In this document: positions 3,209 to 15,534 of the stretch, piece by piece
How positions within the stretch are numbered: position 1 is the first letter of the stretch
Layout of the letters: the number at the start of each line of letters is the position of its first letter
NCBI RefSeq assembly: GCF_011683915.1
Contig: NZ_JAAQPH010000033.1
Coordinates: 1-40,715, forward strand
Direction: 5' to 3'
DNA length: 40,715 nt
DNA from: Pelagibius litoralis
GTDB taxonomy: Bacteria > Pseudomonadota > Alphaproteobacteria > Kiloniellales > Kiloniellaceae
The notes under the pieces: model-generated
Seen by the model: the letters and a program-made list of their open reading frames with translations, nothing else
Told to the model about the DNA's origin: nothing
The model's database searches: none
Program-made: the position numbers and the translations under genes

Positions 3209-4039
3209 TTACGGAGCGGCCCGGGTAACCGCCTGCGCCGGCGGTGCGCCACGCCGGTAAAAGCGCCCGCCCTTGCGCCAGATCCAAAGCGCCTCCCAAT
3301 GGATCGCAGCCATCACCTTGGCGGTCATGAGAGGGTAGCGCAGGAGCGCACGCCACAGCCCGCCGTGATCGATGGCGACCCGCCGCCCGGTGAGCGTTGC
3401 CAGAAGAACTTCCCCTTCGGCGACGGCCTGGCGGATCAGGATTGAAAGACTCTCCTGCGGTTCGCGCAGCCTGAAACGATAGGCGGAGGCCATCTCAATG
3501 AAGGGTGAGACGTAGAATTTTTTCTCGCAGCTTTGCAGGATCGGTTTGTTGTCGCGATTGTCCTCGGCAACCGGGATCAGATAGCAGTGCTGCTCGCCGA
3601 AGGTGTTCTTCACCTCGTAGATAATGGCGCGCAGCGACCCGTTGCGATGATGGCAGAACCAAACCGAAAGAGGGTTGAAGACGTAACCCAGGATACGCGG
3701 AAAACAGAGCAGGCGAAGGGCGCCACCCTCCAGGTCGATGCCCGCTGCCAGCAACTGCGCTTCCGCCCAGGGCCTCAGTGGCGTTCCGTCCCGCGGCCCG
3801 TGATCGCTATCGCGAAAACTGAAGATGTTGAAGCGGTTGTGAGAAAGCAGCGGCAGGCTGCGGGTCAGGCGCGGCAACTCGTCCAGATCGAGAAAGAGCG
3901 AAAAAACGCTGTAGCGAAAGCGGTGCGTGAAGGGACGCATACGTTTGTGCATCACCTGCCCGAAGTAGAGGCAGGATCGAAGCGCCCCGCTTTCCGCGAC
4001 GGTCGCAGCCGGGTCTGTCTTTGCCGGGTGTCGCGTCAC
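3209..4039 (-). CDS. DUF1365 family protein
   Basis: A 276-residue protein of the DUF1365 family, recognisable by the N-terminal CLYFGQVMHKRMRPFTHRF segment, the central ILGYVFNPLSVWFCH motif and the downstream KKFYVSPFIEM motif. The biochemical function is undefined, but the family is almost always encoded between an FAD-dependent amine-oxidase-like protein and a CFA-synthase-like methyltransferase, as here. A role in acyl-chain modification of phospholipids is therefore inferred. The gene starts with GTG inside the stop of the flavoprotein gene (GTGA overlap), so the two are translationally coupled. The protein ends 46 bases before the methyltransferase start. Confidence 0.88.
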   Translation of the reverse strand: MTRHPAKTDPAATVAESGALRSCLYFGQVMHKRMRPFTHRFRYSVFSLFLDLDELPRLTRSLPLLSHNRFNIFSFRDSDHGPRDGTPLRPWAEAQLLAAGIDLEGGALRLLCFPRILGYVFNPLSVWFCHHRNGSLRAIIYEVKNTFGEQHCYLIPVAEDNRDNKPILQSCEKKFYVSPFIEMASAYRFRLREPQESLSILIRQAVAEGEVLLATLTGRRVAIDHGGLWRALLRYPLMTAKVMAAIHWEALWIWRKGGRFYRRGAPPAQAVTRAAP

Positions 4040-5397
4040 TCGGCAGCCTCCATGACGGCGGCGGGAACCACGGCCTCTGCCGCGGGGCTGCGCGGGATGA
4101 CGTCTTGCGCCCAGGGGGCCGGCGCGCCGAGGGCGGCGGCGACACCCAGGCCGGCCTGCAGCCCGTCCTCATGAAAGCCATAACCGCAGTAGGAGCCACA
4201 GAACCAAGTGCGCAGGGAGCCCTGGATATCCGGCAGGGTCCGTTGTGCCTGCAGGGCCGCGGCATCGAACAGCGGGTGGTCGTAGACGAAGCTTCGCAGT
4301 ACCGAGCCCAGCGCCGGTTCGCGCTCCGGGTTCAGGGTAACGAACAGCGGATGGCGCCGGTCGATGCCCTGCAGTTGGTTCATCCAGTAAGTGACAGAGA
4401 CCTTCTGCGTATCGAAGTCGCCCAAGGTCGCCCCGTCGGCCGGCGCGGCGATGCTGCCGCTGGTGTAGTTCCAGCTTGCCCAGGCGCCGCGCCGCCGCGG
4501 CATCAGGCTGGCATCGGTATGCAGCAGGGCACGATTTTCTTCGTAGCGGAAGGCGCCCAGGACGGCCCGCTCCTTGTTCGTCGCACCGGCACCGAGCATG
4601 CGCAGAGCCTGGTCGGCATGGCAGGCGAGCACGACCTGATCGAAGCGTTCCTCATCCCGGCCGGCGGCGCGCAGGTAGACGCCGTCGGGCGCGCGCCGCA
4701 GGGCGGCGATCGGGCTTGCCAGGCGCACCTCGCCCCTAAGCGCGTCCCTGATGCGGCTGACATACTCGCGGCTGCCGCCGGTAACGGTGCGCCACTGCGG
4801 CCGACCCTTCATCAACAGCAAGCCATGGTTCTCACAGAACTGGATGAAGGATTGGGCCGGGAAGGCCAGCATGTCTTCCAAGGGCGTCGACCAGATCGCC
4901 GATCCCATCGGCAGCAGGTGGTCCCGGGTAAAGGCTTCTCCATAGCCGCCATGGGTGAGGAGTTCACCAAGGCTCATGCTGGCGGTTTCCGCCTCTCGCA
5001 TGGCGCCGGGGGCATCGCGGTAAAAGCGCAGCAGATCGCGCAGCATCGACCAGAAACGCGGCCGCAGAAGATTGCGCTTCTGAATGAACAGCCCGGCGGC
5101 ACTGCCCCGGTATTCCAGGCGGCCGTTGTCGAGCGAGACCGAGAAGGACATATCGCTGCGCTGGGTCGGCACAGCCAGTGCCTCGAAAAGCCTGGTCAGG
5201 TTGGGGTAGGCAAGTTCGTTGTAGACGATAAAGCCGGTATCGACGGCCAAGGGCGCCCCGCCCAGGGTGATGTCGACCGTATTGGCGTGACCGCCAAGGC
5301 GTCCTTCCGACTCAAAAAGCGTTACGTCATGACTTTTGTCTAAGGCCCAGGCCGCACCCAAGCCGGTGATGCCGGCCCCAACAACTGCAATCTTCAT
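4036..5397 (-). CDS. FAD-dependent amine oxidase/desaturase-like flavoprotein
   Basis: A 453-residue flavoprotein, first gene of the lipid operon. The N-terminus carries a Rossmann dinucleotide-binding motif (VVGAGITGLGAAWAL, residues about 4-18), then an acidic ribose-binding position and the GRLGGHANTV segment seen in amine oxidases and phytoene desaturases. It ends with the segment CGSYCGYGFHEDGLQAG, typical of this group. The ATG is preceded by AAGGGA at 7-base spacing. Homologues sit with DUF1365 and CFA-like methyltransferases. In Rhodobacter a fatty acid desaturase named UfaD takes part in furan fatty acid synthesis; whether this protein is its counterpart is inference. Confidence 0.87.
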   Translation of the reverse strand: MKIAVVGAGITGLGAAWALDKSHDVTLFESEGRLGGHANTVDITLGGAPLAVDTGFIVYNELAYPNLTRLFEALAVPTQRSDMSFSVSLDNGRLEYRGSAAGLFIQKRNLLRPRFWSMLRDLLRFYRDAPGAMREAETASMSLGELLTHGGYGEAFTRDHLLPMGSAIWSTPLEDMLAFPAQSFIQFCENHGLLLMKGRPQWRTVTGGSREYVSRIRDALRGEVRLASPIAALRRAPDGVYLRAAGRDEERFDQVVLACHADQALRMLGAGATNKERAVLGAFRYEENRALLHTDASLMPRRRGAWASWNYTSGSIAAPADGATLGDFDTQKVSVTYWMNQLQGIDRRHPLFVTLNPEREPALGSVLRSFVYDHPLFDAAALQAQRTLPDIQGSLRTWFCGSYCGYGFHEDGLQAGLGVAAALGAPAPWAQDVIPRSPAAEAVVPAAVMEAAE

Positions 5398-5770
5398 ACT
5401 CTTCCCTTATCGACCTGCGCCTTTGGGCGGCTCCGTGATTTTTACGATCCCGGTCTGCCGAGGGCACAACCTCTCTTTTAGATACCTAGTGCGGCGTACC
5501 GCGCAGGGACAGGCCGCTTTTCAATCCGTTGTCGATCTTTCCGGAACGCCCCACCCTGTGTGCCGCTGCGCCCTGACCAACGCATATTCACTTGTACTGA
5601 TACGCGGCTAAATCCTTAATGGATCATGATCTTGGATAACCGATAGGCTGTCGTAGGGGGCCGTCGCCTTGTTGTAGGCTCCATTGGTCGGCTGCCGCCA
5701 CAGGCGGGCCTTGAAGCGGAGAGTCCAATGCGTCAGAAAGCCCGATGACGGGAGAAAGGCGCGCCACGCC
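5398..5770. other. Divergent intergenic region between lipid operon and rarA
   Basis: A 373-base region separating the minus-strand lipid operon from plus-strand rarA. It holds the possible ECF11 promoter at 5597-5626 and a small palindromic core ATCATGAT near 5623. No gene with convincing codon use or ribosome-binding site was found. A GGGAGAAAGG stretch near 5750 probably serves rarA. Confidence 0.6.
5597..5626 (-). promoter_or_regulatory. Possible ECF11 (RpoE-ChrR type) sigma factor promoter
   Basis: Read on the minus strand, TGATCC (5626-5621) is followed after 16 bases by CGTATC (5604-5599). This matches my recollection of the ECF11/RpoE promoter pattern, TGATC(C) with 16 bases then CGTA(A/T). 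It would start transcription near 5590, about 190 bases before the flavoprotein ATG, and drive the lipid operon. The pattern is short and the leader is long, so this is a prediction. Confidence 0.5.
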
Positions 5771-7078
5771 ATGACAGGACTATTTGAAAGCCAGGCCCCG
5801 CGGCCCTTGGCCGATCGTCTCAGGCCGCAAAGCCTCGCCGAGGTGGTGGGGCAGGACCACCTTCTGGGGCCGGAGGGCCCCCTTGGCCGGATGCTGGCGT
5901 CGGCCCGTCTGGCATCGCTTGTTCTTTGGGGGCCGCCGGGTTGCGGCAAGACCACGATTGCGCGGCTGCTGGCCCAGGAGACGACCCTGGAGTTCGAACC
6001 GCTCTCGGCGGTCTTCTCCGGCGTCGCCGATCTCCGCAAGGTTTTCGAGCGGGCCAAGCAGCGCCGTCTCGCCGGCCGCGGCACTTTGCTTTTCGTCGAT
6101 GAGATACATCGCTTTAATCGGGCCCAGCAGGACGGCTTCCTGCCTTTTGTCGAAGACGGCACCGTTGTTCTGGTGGGCGCCACGACCGAGAATCCTTCCT
6201 TCGAGCTGAACGCGGCTTTGCTGTCGCGCTGTCAGGTCCTCGTCCTCAAGCGGTTGGAGGAAGCGGCCCTGCGTGAGCTTCTGGCGCGGGTCGAGGCCTT
6301 GGAGGGCCGCAATCTGCCGCTGACCTCCGAGTCGCGGGCGGCCCTGATGGCCATGGCCGACGGGGACGGGCGTTACCTTCTGAATCTGGCCGAAGAGGTG
6401 CTGGCGCTCGCCGGCCGGGAGCCCCTGGACACCGCCGCCCTTGCCGCGGTGGTCCAGAAGCGCGCGCCGATTTACGACAAGGGCCAGGAAAGCCACTACA
6501 ACCTCATCTCGGCTCTGCACAAATCGCTGCGCGGGTCCGACTGCGATGCGGCGCTCTACTGGTTCGCCCGGATGCTGGCCGGCGGCGAGGACCCCCACTT
6601 CATCGCCCGCCGTCTGGTGCGCTTTGCCGTCGAGGATGTCGGCCTGGCTGACCCGGATGCGCTGCCGCAGTCGATGGCTGCCTGGCAGGCTTTTGAGCGG
6701 ATCGGCTCACCGGAGGGCGAGTTGGCCCTGGCCCAGGCGGTGATCTATCTGGCCACCGCGCCAAAGTCCAACGCCGCCTACAAGGCCTATAAGGGCGCGC
6801 GCAAAAGCGCCGGGGAGAGCGGCTCGCTGGCGCCACCGGCGCATATTCTGAACGCGCCGACGGGCCTGATGCGCGACCTGGGTTACGGCCAGGGTTACCA
6901 TTACGACCACGACACGGCAGAGGGTTTTTCGGGTCAGGATTATTTTCCTGAATCCTTGGGGCGACAGCCCTTCTACCGCCCTGTCGAGCGCGGGTTTGAG
7001 CGAGAGATCCGCAAACGGCTCGACTATTGGGCGAAGCTTCGCAACCGTCAGCAAAGCGGTGATGGAAGCGAGGGTTAG
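5771..7078 (+). CDS. rarA: Replication-associated recombination protein A (RarA/MgsA AAA+ ATPase)
   Basis: A 435-residue AAA+ ATPase related to clamp-loader subunits, acting at stalled replication forks. The Walker A motif GPPGCGKTT is near residue 57, Walker B is LLFVDEIHRFN, and sensor 1 lies in VGATTENPSFELN. The C-terminal half has the family's RGSDCDAALYWFARML, APKSNAAYKAY and GYHYDHD segments. Length matches RarA (about 430-450). The start at MTGLFES is chosen because it matches the family N-terminus; an upstream in-frame codon at 5684 would add an unrelated basic stretch. It is transcribed away from the lipid operon, apparently as a single gene. Confidence 0.96.
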   Translation: MTGLFESQAPRPLADRLRPQSLAEVVGQDHLLGPEGPLGRMLASARLASLVLWGPPGCGKTTIARLLAQETTLEFEPLSAVFSGVADLRKVFERAKQRRLAGRGTLLFVDEIHRFNRAQQDGFLPFVEDGTVVLVGATTENPSFELNAALLSRCQVLVLKRLEEAALRELLARVEALEGRNLPLTSESRAALMAMADGDGRYLLNLAEEVLALAGREPLDTAALAAVVQKRAPIYDKGQESHYNLISALHKSLRGSDCDAALYWFARMLAGGEDPHFIARRLVRFAVEDVGLADPDALPQSMAAWQAFERIGSPEGELALAQAVIYLATAPKSNAAYKAYKGARKSAGESGSLAPPAHILNAPTGLMRDLGYGQGYHYDHDTAEGFSGQDYFPESLGRQPFYRPVERGFEREIRKRLDYWAKLRNRQQSGDGSEG

Positions 7079-7149
7079 AGCCAGCCTTGCGTTTCGCGCG
7101 CGGCTGCCATTCCGCCTTGCCTGTTGTTTGCTGGCGTAATGGTCGTAGT

Positions 7150-7164
7150 TTGTCACCGTGACAA
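7150..7164. promoter_or_regulatory. Perfect palindrome, possible operator
   Basis: TTGTCAC and GTGACAA flank a single central C, giving a perfect 7-base dyad 68 bases upstream of the isochorismatase-fold gene. The size and symmetry fit a binding site for a dimeric repressor. No regulator is encoded next to it, and no clear promoter was identified around it. Confidence 0.4.
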
Positions 7165-7231
7165 TGACGCCGGGCTGCTTAGGGCCCGAGTGGCAAATTA
7201 ACCAAACTCACTAGGATCATAGGGGCGTTGC

Positions 7232-7897
7232 ATGGCCAACTACTGCGTGCCTGATAAGGGCAAAGCAGCTCTTCTTTGTATCTCTGCGCAGCGTGATTTC
7301 ATCACGCCGGGCTCGCCGCTGCGGGCCTCGGGAACCCGTTCGGCGCTGCCGAACATGAAGCGGCTTGTTGAGGCGTTTCGGGCCCAGGGCGCACCGATCT
7401 TTCACTCGGTCCGGCTGTATAAGGCCGATGGTTCCAACGTCGATGCCTGCCGCCGTCAGGCGGTCGAAGAAGGCATGCGCATTCTCATGCCCGGCACTTT
7501 GGGCGCCGAGCTGATCGACGATCTGCAGCCCAGCGCCGACATGCGCCTGGATCCGGAGCTGCTGTTCTCCGGCGAGTTCCAGGAGGTCGCGGGCAACGAG
7601 TTCGTCCACTACCGCCCGCGTTGGGGCGCCTTTCACGATACGGCGCTGGAAGCCAAGCTGCGCGAACAGGAAGTAACGACCCTGGTGATCTGCGGCTTCA
7701 GTTTCTCGACGGGCGGCCGCGCCTCGGTCTACGAAGCGTCGGCACGCGATTTCAGGATTATCCTGGCGACCGATGCGCTTTGCAACGCGACCGAGGACTC
7801 GGTGCGCGAACTCGGCCGGATCGGGGTCTATCTCATGGACAGCGCCAACTGCCTGTCCTGGATGGGCAGCGGTGGCCCCCGTTCGGTGGCTGCATAG
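7232..7897 (+). CDS. Isochorismatase-fold protein lacking the catalytic triad
   Basis: A 221-residue protein with the cysteine hydrolase (isochorismatase/nicotinamidase) fold: an N-terminal strand followed by QRDF, a central RPRWGAFHDT segment and the strand-turn LVICGF before a helix. The usual Asp-Lys-Cys triad appears lost. Ser18 stands where Asp is expected in the I-D-x-Q motif, Arg128 where Lys is expected before the G-A-F segment, and Gly161 where the nucleophilic Cys is expected. Gly at the Cys position is known in true isochorismatases (EntB, PhzD), but they keep the Asp. AGGGGC precedes the ATG. The gene stands alone and is followed by a GC-rich hairpin. Fold is confident; catalysis is doubtful. 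Confidence 0.8.
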   Translation: MANYCVPDKGKAALLCISAQRDFITPGSPLRASGTRSALPNMKRLVEAFRAQGAPIFHSVRLYKADGSNVDACRRQAVEEGMRILMPGTLGAELIDDLQPSADMRLDPELLFSGEFQEVAGNEFVHYRPRWGAFHDTALEAKLREQEVTTLVICGFSFSTGGRASVYEASARDFRIILATDALCNATEDSVRELGRIGVYLMDSANCLSWMGSGGPRSVAA

Positions 7898-7972
7898 AGC
7901 GCAGACCCGAAAGGGCCCACACCGCAGCAAGGGCGTTTGCGCCCCGGTTTCGTCTCTGATAGCTAGAAAGCC

Positions 7973-8002
7973 GCCGCCGCCCGATCGGGCGGACGGCCTT
8001 GG
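7973..8002 (+). terminator. GC-rich hairpin after the isochorismatase-fold gene
   Basis: CCGCCC (7977-7982) pairs with GGGCGG (7987-7992) around GATC, and GCCG (7973-7976) with CGGC (7994-7997) extends the stem past a bulged A. Only a weak T-rich stretch follows, so it may be an inefficient terminator or a leader structure of crcB. Confidence 0.4.
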
Positions 8003-8023
8003 TTTGGCAAGGGGACGGGGCGC

Positions 8024-8419
8024 ATGCAGGTTCAGGTCTTGGCGAGCGTTGCGCTGGGCGGTGCCCTGGGTGCGCTTGGACGCTATTTGATGATCGCCCA
8101 GGTGAGCCATTGGTTCGGTCCCTGGATCGGGGGGTTTCCGCTGGGGACCCTCAGCGTCAATGTGCTCGGGTCTTTCGTCATGGGGCTCCTGGTGGAGGTC
8201 ATGGCGATAACCTGGTCGCCCTCGGCAGAGCTTCGCGCGCTCCTCACCATCGGATTTCTGGGGGCATTCACCACCTTCTCGACTTTTTCCCTGGAGGCCT
8301 TTCTGCTCTACGAGCGCGGCGCCGTCTTCCAGGCGGCAGGCTATGTCGCCGCTTCCGTGGTCTTTTCCATCGCCGGTTTTGCTGCGGGCCTCTATCTGGT
8401 GCGGATCAGCGTCGGATGA
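8024..8419 (+). CDS. crcB: Fluoride efflux channel CrcB/Fluc
   Basis: A 131-residue membrane protein with four hydrophobic segments. It matches the Fluc family: GALGALGRY in helix 1, then FPLGTLSVNVLGSF, then GFLGAFTTFSTFS, which contains the conserved Phe residues and the helix break of the dual-topology fluoride channel. It exports cytoplasmic fluoride as a homodimer. The leader was checked for a fluoride riboswitch and none was recognised. The stop overlaps the rluC start codon (ATGA), so the two are co-translated, an arrangement common in alphaproteobacteria. Confidence 0.95.
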   Translation: MQVQVLASVALGGALGALGRYLMIAQVSHWFGPWIGGFPLGTLSVNVLGSFVMGLLVEVMAITWSPSAELRALLTIGFLGAFTTFSTFSLEAFLLYERGAVFQAAGYVAASVVFSIAGFAAGLYLVRISVG

Positions 8420-9462
8420 GCCAGGTTCAGCAGATCACCGTTGCGGCGGAAGAAGCCGGCCAGCGGCTGGACCGATGGTTCCGCCAGCGCTTTCCCCAGG
8501 TCACCCAGGGGCGCCTGGAAAAGCTCCTGCGAAAGGGCGAGGTGCGGGTTGACGGGAAACGGGCAAAGTCGGCCCACCGGATCGAGGCCGGAGAAACCGT
8601 TCGCATACCTCCCTTGCCGGACCCGGAAACAGCGCGGCCGGCAAGTGATCGGCCCGGGCGGGTGCGCCTCTCGGCGGAGGCCGAGGCGGACCTGCTGGGC
8701 AGGGTCCTGTACCGCGATGCTTCGGTCATTGCCCTGGACAAGCCGGCCGGCCTGGCGGTGCAGGGCGGCAGCGGTCAGTCGCGTCACCTGGATGGTATGC
8801 TCGACGCCCTTCGGTTCGGCTCTGGCGAGCGGCCGAGACTGGTCCATCGGTTGGATAAAGATACCGCCGGGGTCCTGCTGCTGGCACGCAACGCCGCCAG
8901 TGCCCGCGCGCTGACGGCGGCCTTCCGCGGCAAGACTACCCAGAAAGTCTATTGGGCCCTGGTCAGGGGCGTGCCGGAAGAGCGGCGGGGCTTGATCGAC
9001 CTGCCTTTGGCCAAGGTCCGGTCCGCTTTGGGCGACGCAGTGGCGCCCGCCGGCGAGGACGGCAAGGCCGCCCAGACCCTGTACCGCGTGGTCGAGAGCT
9101 ACCGCCGTGATGTGGCCTGGCTGGTGCTGATGCCACTGACCGGGCGTACGCATCAACTGCGGGTCCATTGTGCGGCCATGGGTACGCCCATCGTTGGGGA
9201 CGGCAAGTACGGTGGACGCGATGCCTTTCCGGCGAAGCTGGATCTGCCGAAGTCCATGCACCTCTTGGCGCGGGAGCTTGCTTTGCCGCATCCGGATGAC
9301 GGCACCACCCTGCGGACCACGGCACCCTTGCCGGCCCATATGGCGGAAAGCTGGAAGAAGCTGGGGTTTGATGAACGAAAAGGCGAGGCGGCTTTCGAAG
9401 CCCTGTTGGCCTATGCCGAAGGCATCAGCCACTCACCCGGCCAGGGCCACAGGTCTTACTAG
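8416..9462 (+). CDS. rluC: RluC/RluA family ribosomal RNA pseudouridine synthase
   Basis: A 348-residue enzyme that isomerises uridine to pseudouridine in 23S rRNA. The N-terminus (about residues 1-75) is an S4 RNA-binding domain (QRLDRWFRQRFP, LRKGEVRVDGKRAKS). The catalytic domain contains ALDKPAGLAVQGG and the hallmark RLVHRLDKDTAGVLLLAR, whose HRLDKDT holds the catalytic Asp, followed by LTGRTHQLRVH and PIVGDGKYGG. The start is the ATG overlapping the crcB stop; longer upstream readings run through crcB in another frame. It belongs to an rluC-HAD-atp12 string, interrupted here by two minus-strand genes. Confidence 0.94.
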   Translation: MSQVQQITVAAEEAGQRLDRWFRQRFPQVTQGRLEKLLRKGEVRVDGKRAKSAHRIEAGETVRIPPLPDPETARPASDRPGRVRLSAEAEADLLGRVLYRDASVIALDKPAGLAVQGGSGQSRHLDGMLDALRFGSGERPRLVHRLDKDTAGVLLLARNAASARALTAAFRGKTTQKVYWALVRGVPEERRGLIDLPLAKVRSALGDAVAPAGEDGKAAQTLYRVVESYRRDVAWLVLMPLTGRTHQLRVHCAAMGTPIVGDGKYGGRDAFPAKLDLPKSMHLLARELALPHPDDGTTLRTTAPLPAHMAESWKKLGFDERKGEAAFEALLAYAEGISHSPGQGHRSY

Positions 9463-14607: not shown

Positions 14608-15534
14608 CTAGACGTCCCGCGTGGCCGGCGGCTCCTGCGCGCCTGTCATCATGACTTCTGCCAGGGTGCCGTAGGTCTTGGCCCAGGCCGCCTCGACCGC
14701 TGGCGTATAGGCGTCCTGCAGGCCCTGCTGGAGAGTCCAGAGCAGCGCCTCGGCGACGCTCGTGTAGTGCTTCAACTCGACGCCGTAAGCATGGTGGCGC
14801 TGGCCCATTACCTTGACCGCCGGTACCAGCTTGTCGAGTTTCTCGAGGCTTGAGACCGCAGTCTTCAGCACGGCCATGAGCTTGCGGCCCTGCTCGGTCA
14901 TGTCACCTTTGAAAAGCGGCTTGGTGCTGGGGTCGATCTCGAACAGCCTGCCGTAGAACAGGGCTGCGGCGTCATCGGCGATGGGCTCGACCAAAGCAAA
15001 GGTTTCCTGCACCAGCTTGATCTCTGCGGCCGAAAGCGGGCCGCTGACCACAGGCGCAGGCTTTGATGCCCTGGCCGGCGCGCTTGCCTTCGCCCTGGTT
15101 GGCCGCGCCGCCGGTTTGGGCGCTGCGGTCCGCTCAGGTGTGGTGGGCTGGGGGGCGACGTGAACCGGGGCCGGCTGGCGTTCGGCGTCTTCGTTGAGTT
15201 TCGACAGCTGATTGATCCGGTGGGTCAGGCTGCCCACGATATCGCCGATCTGGTTGGTCGCCTTGCTGGTCTGCCCCGCCAGCTGCTTCACCTCGCCGGC
15301 AACCACGGCAAACCCCTTGCCGGCTTCACCGGCGCGCGCCGCTTCGATGGTGGCGTTCAGGGCCAGCAGGTTGGTCTGCTTGGCGATCGCTTCGATCTGC
15401 CCGGCCATGTTGGCGACATTTTCCACCTCGCTGCGCAGCGCCTCGATCTGCTCGGCGATCCCGCCGGCGGGTTCCTGCCCCGCATTTTCATTACTCTTAA
15501 CGTTTGCTGCGGTGCGGGCGTGACTGGCTGACAT
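14608..15534 (-). CDS. Soluble MCP signalling-tip and globin fusion protein
   Basis: A 308-residue protein with no transmembrane segment. Residues about 26-110 form a coiled-coil that includes the highly conserved methyl-accepting chemotaxis protein hairpin tip ([28 protein letters not shown]). A Pro/Ala-rich linker spans about 120-165. Residues about 167-298 are a single-domain bacterial globin resembling Vitreoscilla haemoglobin: Tyr194 at the B10 position, Phe208 at CD1 (KPLF) and proximal His247 in the segment RHHAYGV. Known globin-coupled sensors usually have the globin first and the signalling domain last, so the order here is reversed, and the MCP part is only the tip region. AGGGAC precedes the ATG. 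I infer an oxygen- or NO-responsive partner of chemoreceptor arrays or CheA/CheW. Confidence 0.88.

Follow-up and report, generated by a model that had tools for sequence, protein, structure and literature searches.

What would a bacterium do with a chemoreceptor tip that stands in front of a haem globin, in a protein with no receptor around it? This question is raised by a gene of Pelagibius litoralis found on the minus strand at 14608..15534 of the window, meaning the whole analysed stretch of 40,715 nucleotides. According to the ORF listing of the window, the gene runs from an ATG at 15534 to a stop at 14608, stop codon included, and encodes 308 amino acids; the reading frame, Pfam matches and orthologues delimit it. 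It is convergent with one neighbor and divergent from the other. These neighbors were read by eye as, presumably, an ATP12-type chaperone and a propionyl-CoA carboxylase beta subunit, and they point to no function; no gene in the window links the tip-globin to chemotaxis. A promoter scan returned 0 promoter-like sites.

How are the parts arranged? A sequence-only reading had described a tip followed by a Pro/Ala linker and a globin, a soluble protein free of membrane segments, and a receptor portion reduced to the tip, with the adaptation regions missing. All of this was borne out. The Pfam MCPsignal profile matches residues 12-118 (E 5e-27, 95.3 bits against a cut-off of 34.6), a partial match over positions 7-113 of the 172 in the profile, and the Globin profile matches residues 193-295 (E 9.5e-15, 55.6 bits against a cut-off of 22), with an Ala/Pro-rich stretch at residues 116-166. 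A membrane span is not expected, because the highest 19-residue Kyte-Doolittle mean is only 0.86; hidden spans were excluded on the same maximum. Tip residues 30-116 align with 1qu7_A, a Tsr fragment of 227 residues, at its positions 58-144; the methylation helices lie outside these positions, so the tip ends before those helices.

The receptor portion, referred to here as the mini-tip, is the protein-interaction hairpin (residues ~26-112, 15199..15459, minus strand), delimited by the partial MCPsignal match, by solved receptor tips, and by its fixed length in the genus. Its best two solved matches are receptor fragments, 4jpb_B (90 residues) and 3ur1_C (85 residues), excised Thermotoga tips that were reportedly made as laboratory constructs and crystallized together with CheA and CheW. 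A core from Q53 to A66 does not vary among 14 aligned tip-globins, and a relative with the opposite domain order (G175) differs from it at one position. By length, the 87 tip residues make up about 6 paired heptads; the receptor classes described in the accessible text of PMC6628036 have 12 to 32.

Mini-tips appear to be a group distinct from the tips of ordinary receptors. When 29 of them were placed in one tree with 39 other receptor tips (87 columns, several long branches), the mini-tips formed one side of a branch with an SH-aLRT support of 94.5, the program's mark being 95, and such a split is favored because the rows were gathered by mutual likeness. Several positions characterize them: position 36 is Glu or Asp in 27/27 different mini-tips versus 1/39 other tips, position 37 is Ile or Val in all 27, and position 87 is Gly in 25 of the 27. 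Position 52, which in Tsr is the Phe at the trimer contact, carries Lys or Arg in 23/27. In the structure model, residues 26-119 form a single straight helix, with the hairpin absent. This part had just two alignment rows behind it, and the model is therefore given little weight here; even so, it lends the hairpin no support. An alignment that included receptor-tip fragments placed them on the globin and was left out of the results.

The globin domain (residues ~169-299, 14638..15030, minus strand) is delimited by Pfam, by solved globins, and by the fit of its model to HGbI. Its positions are named by alignment to HGbRL, with the numbering used in the accessible text of PMC4476040, where the lysine E10 of HGbRL is described as able to bind iron. 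By this alignment, TyrB10 is Y194 (codon at 14953..14955, minus strand), GlnE7 is Q215, and the proximal HisF8 is H247 (codon at 14794..14796, minus strand), in agreement with the earlier claim that the B10 Tyr and the proximal His are conserved. Both residues, along with PheCD1, GlnE7, LeuE11, and a Trp at 284, occur in 22/22 globin domains of 19 fusions, and LysE10 in 21 of the 22. The domain had also been called Vitreoscilla-type. Vitreoscilla haemoglobin is indeed matched, but HGbRL and HGbI are closer, and the window globin carries the TyrB10, GlnE7, HisF8, and LysE10 of the HGbI/HGbRL subgroup. By sequence, then, it is a globin of the flavohaemoglobin/HGbI type with a haem pocket predicted to be complete. 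A flavohaemoglobin as such was ruled out, as no FAD/NAD reductase domain matched the protein in Pfam at up to E 1. Modeling gave a pLDDT of 48 from a first alignment of two rows; a second, of 23 rows (the window protein, the tip-globin of L001, and 21 globins from 35 loci), yielded globin block means of 86 to 95 over residues 171 to 300. The globin model fits oxygen-bound HGbI at 1.1 Å and fits site-swapped HGbRL structures poorly (TM-score ≤0.47).

Between the two domains lies the tether (residues 113-168, 15031..15198, minus strand), marked out by mostly low model confidence and by a length that varies within the genus. Residues 116-166 include 13 Ala and 12 Pro; the stretches aligned to them in 7 genus members range from 38 to 68 amino acids with 30% identity, and the structure model has low confidence over most of the tether. 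In the same 7 members, the lengths of the tip region (91 amino acids, residues 25-115) and the globin region (133 amino acids) are fixed. Mean dN/dS values in the genus are ~0.16 for the tip and ~0.19 for the globin (21/21 pairs each), ~0.52 for the tether (18/21 pairs), and ~1.1 for the 24 N-terminal residues (16/21 pairs). Tip and globin are both under purifying selection, and the tether drifts while both domains stay under selection; judged by its sequence, the tether is disordered.

Could the fusion be an assembly error, or a gene in decay? The full tip-globin is found in 7/8 genomes of the genus, its own included; the eighth, G004, has no match at E 1e-45. In all seven, six shared marker genes surround the gene in identical order. 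With the same join in at least 17 genomes of 7 families, a conserved gene order in the genus, and low dN/dS over both domains, the probability of error or decay is negligible.

These counts come from searches of 143 genomes, of 61 genomes of the order, of 289 of the class, and of 398 of the phylum, the last two sets being samples of larger groups. The number of first-look candidates scored per genome was limited (e.g., 5 in the phylum sample, 15 or 16 in the class and 143-genome searches). Because candidate scoring was partial and the groups were sampled, the family counts are lower bounds. A search for the order of tip, then globin, had been proposed as a check, and it returned these 17 or more genomes, at least 3 of which carry two globins. 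Within the order, the arrangement occurs in at least 12/61 genomes, with two globins in G040 and G047. The 143-genome search added G126, and the class search, with a stand-alone tip as query, added G103, G145, G172, and G242, of which G103 was matched in the 143-genome search as well. In the phylum sample, only the window's own genome had tip and globin in a single match, among the candidates scored. The opposite order, globin then tip, is present in at least 2 genomes (G252 and G175). Stand-alone tips of 105-128 amino acids, measured from the chosen start codon, were found in at least 10 genomes, including 4/9 genomes of genus g3, the other five having no match at E 1e-30. Two more short tip frames, in G591 and G715, were kept outside the family counts. 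The globin-tip protein of G175 is sister to the adjoining stand-alone globin (support 98), and therefore mini-tip and globin were joined independently there, in the opposite order, which suggests that the pairing is useful. Spread by plasmids was considered and rejected: 9 plasmid records match the globin part only, none of them covering 80% of the query.

The same globin type turns up in other settings too. It forms the N terminus of long proteins that also have PAS-like repeats and end in an MCP domain (L034:5986-8004; L083:5711-8908; L084:8243-11395; L085:7777-10269). At L005:4975-7028, a PAS-PAS-full MCP sequence, a break at a run of nine A, and an Ala/Pro linker precede a globin of this type, and the locus holds either two reading frames or one full receptor ending in a globin. 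At L035:3974-7298, a stand-alone globin of the flavohaemoglobin/HGbI type is flanked by a histidine-kinase ORF on one side and a receiver ORF on the other. In the window's own genome, contig 64 carries a stand-alone globin (L092:9797-10231) about 1.1 kb from large MCP genes at 3861-5975 and 6544-8667.

What, then, might the protein do? The reading favored here, given a probability of about 0.45, is that it could be a soluble, non-adapting haem sensor or adaptor whose tip docks it on the CheA/CheW baseplate and whose tether provides the coupling. Two hairpins would come together as the usual four-helix tip, and the paired tips would take their place among the receptors of the baseplate or become part of mixed receptor trimers. 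The globin would bind O2 or NO. A relay along one rigid helix is not envisaged, given a floppy tether of variable length, the existence of both domain orders, and the extra globins of some members; the signal would most likely be passed by proximity, or else gas-dependent pairing of the globins might promote or hinder pairing of the hairpins. With the methylation region missing, the kinase response would show no adaptation. Docking on the array is favored because the part retained is the region of a receptor that touches CheA, CheW, and other receptors. Solved tip matches of fragment size, an invariant core, and CheW in most mini-tip genomes argue for it, while CheW-less genomes, the Lys/Arg at position 52, the straight-helix model, and ordinary kinases beside some loci argue against it.

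Are the expected partners present? In the window's own genome, CheW-type domains are present and 18 further receptor tips are matched. CheW domains were found in 27/30 genomes searched (29 mini-tip genomes plus G004), which is 26/29 among mini-tip genomes and 14/17 among those with tip then globin. The CheW domain search had no match in three tip-globin genomes: G011 (87% complete), G172 (98%), and G103 (97%). A search for CheB had none in G172 and G103, and G011 has one CheB-type domain in a 1558-amino-acid frame. The tip core is unchanged in all three, and each has other MCP frames: three in G172 (354-763 amino acids), three in G103 (496-711), and five in G011 (428-842). In the family of G172, 9/11 genomes are without CheW, so the loss there is probably real; three of these nine show MCP frames, and CheA, too, is taken to be absent from those genomes because no CheW domain was found. 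Ordinary MCP proteins in that family are encoded at L191, L194, and L198 (G172), L216 (G715), and L214 and L217 (G717). In G103, the only genome sampled in its family, a gap in the genome is a possible cause of the absence. Flagellin had no match in G172 and G126, among ten genomes searched. The suggestion that the protein joins chemoreceptor arrays thus keeps its footing where the tip resembles 85- and 90-residue receptor fragments and the genome supplies CheW and 18 other tips; it is not universal, given that G172 and G103 had no match for CheW or CheB and G011 had none for CheW.

Some members must therefore work in another way, and tip-globin genomes without CheW keep alive a rival reading in which the mini-tip binds partners other than CheA, such as HisKA-type kinases or CheA-independent receptors; the globin would then serve such a kinase as a separate gas-sensing subunit, in the way stand-alone H-NOX proteins do. 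In G103, a PAS hybrid kinase in a broken frame lies 28 bp downstream of the tip-globin gene, with a receiver behind it; in G126, a HisKA kinase reaching the contig's end region lies 5 bp downstream of the gene; and in G252, the globin-tip gene has, 89 bp downstream, a protein whose receiver match is under the Pfam cut-off. In four genomes of genus g3, a stand-alone tip lies opposite a PAS kinase. These arrangements, together with the tip core that is unchanged in the CheW-less genomes, speak for other partners, yet the window copy has no adjacent kinase, CheW domains occur in most mini-tip genomes, and the tip core is of the type suiting CheA/CheW. Nor is the excess of kinase or receiver ORFs within 2.5 kb significant, at 3/20 mini-tip loci versus 1/35 other loci (p 0.13). 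The 20 loci are not all independent, and four of them come from a single genus; among the 35 are the tip-globin locus L001 and the MCP-globin loci L005 and L034. The excess is a lead, not a result. On balance, this rival is judged unlikely. Also rather unlikely is the idea that the mini-tip may be a distinct portable adaptor, a protein-interaction tip detached from its receptor, used alone or in either order with haem globins and working with kinases or receptors even where CheA/CheW are absent. Two other neighborhoods were seen: the tip-globin gene of G172 is followed after 86 bp by a stand-alone protoglobin (L184:8473-8970, Pfam E 1.6e-32), placing two globin families side by side, and in genus g11 (L078:5398-6587) a sigma-70-type factor and a putative zinc-finger protein (match under the cut-off) precede the tip-globin, with similar ORF pairs at L079 and L081 and none seen at L080.

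Might the globin be a worker and not a sensor? The best known globins of the flavohaemoglobin/HGbI type are enzymes or O2 binders, and an O2- or NO-handling haemoglobin (e.g., an NO dioxygenase) could be parked by the tip at receptor clusters, an arrangement that the loose tether and the tandem globins of 3/17 tip-globin genomes would suit. Against this, there is no reductase domain in the protein and none was noticed beside the window gene, and the fusion of the same globin type to long PAS-MCP proteins suggests sensing; such a role is improbable. Lower still stands the notion that the tip acts independently of gas, as a decoy or spacer in competition for CheA/CheW, with the globin playing no regulatory part. 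Stand-alone tips in at least 10 genomes indicate that a tip can work without a globin, but the haem pocket is kept in 22/22 domains and mini-tips have joined globins in both orders, making a decoy very improbable.

If docking on the baseplate or on other kinases is correct, receptor arrays or those kinases accept soluble, clip-on sensors with no adaptation region, and a full receptor would not be needed for a cell to read O2 or NO. Natural minimal tips would also resemble the fragments made for crystals, which bears on how small a working receptor can be. Should the mini-tip instead prove to be a portable adaptor, it would offer a new, tethered route for plugging a gas sensor into signaling complexes. 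Tips that persist without CheW and CheA domains raise the question of which other partners a receptor tip may have.

How does the protein compare with known systems? It has the signaling tip of an MCP, by its MCPsignal score and by the solved tips, without the long coiled coil and its methylation region, and its globin is without the reductase domain of a flavohaemoglobin. The solved fragments 4jpb_B and 3ur1_C are of the same size and from the same receptor part as the natural mini-tip and carry no globin. Stand-alone H-NOX and NosP proteins are separate haem gas sensors that act on a kinase in trans; they have other folds and no receptor hairpin, and the window gene has no kinase beside it. 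A literature search, with subscription papers mostly outside it, found no description of a bare tip-globin protein. It did find a myxobacterial PAS-globin-MCP protein with a Bac_globin domain, as given in the accessible text of PMC6194562.

The globin-coupled sensors come to mind most readily. In the available portions of PMC13401364 and of a globin census (PMC1457004), these have the sensor globin at the N terminus and the output at the C terminus. Those of the HemAT type, as far as the sources consulted describe them, resemble the window protein in combining a globin and an MCP signaling part in one soluble protein, a combination that readily suggests O2 sensing, and differ in having an N-terminal, protoglobin-like globin and a whole signaling domain, as opposed to a C-terminal globin of the flavohaemoglobin/HGbI type and a tip only. 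The sequence-only reading had called the order inverted, and the globin of the window protein is indeed C-terminal, the globin-first order being present in the two globin-tip relatives. Its globin is not of the sensor type, though: Protoglobin, the sensor-globin family, scores 17.4 bits in the Pfam search, under the cut-off of 25. Because of this, of the globin type, and of the occurrence of the mini-tip both alone and behind a globin, the protein is not simply a flipped globin-coupled sensor.

Closer in their globins are HGbRL, a globin-Roadblock protein, and HGbI of Methylacidiphilum, the nearest solved structures, which share TyrB10, GlnE7, and LysE10 with the window protein. HGbRL is itself a putative sensor outside the usual globin-coupled type, and differs in having the globin first and Roadblock as its partner. 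For the reversed order there is a precedent built of other parts, since DcrH carries a C-terminal O2 module: in the accessible text of PMC9388753, DcrH and similar MCPs have a haemerythrin behind the MCP domain. As in the window protein, an O2-binding module follows an MCP part; DcrH is a membrane receptor with a HAMP and a full MCP domain, and its module is a di-iron haemerythrin in place of a haem globin.
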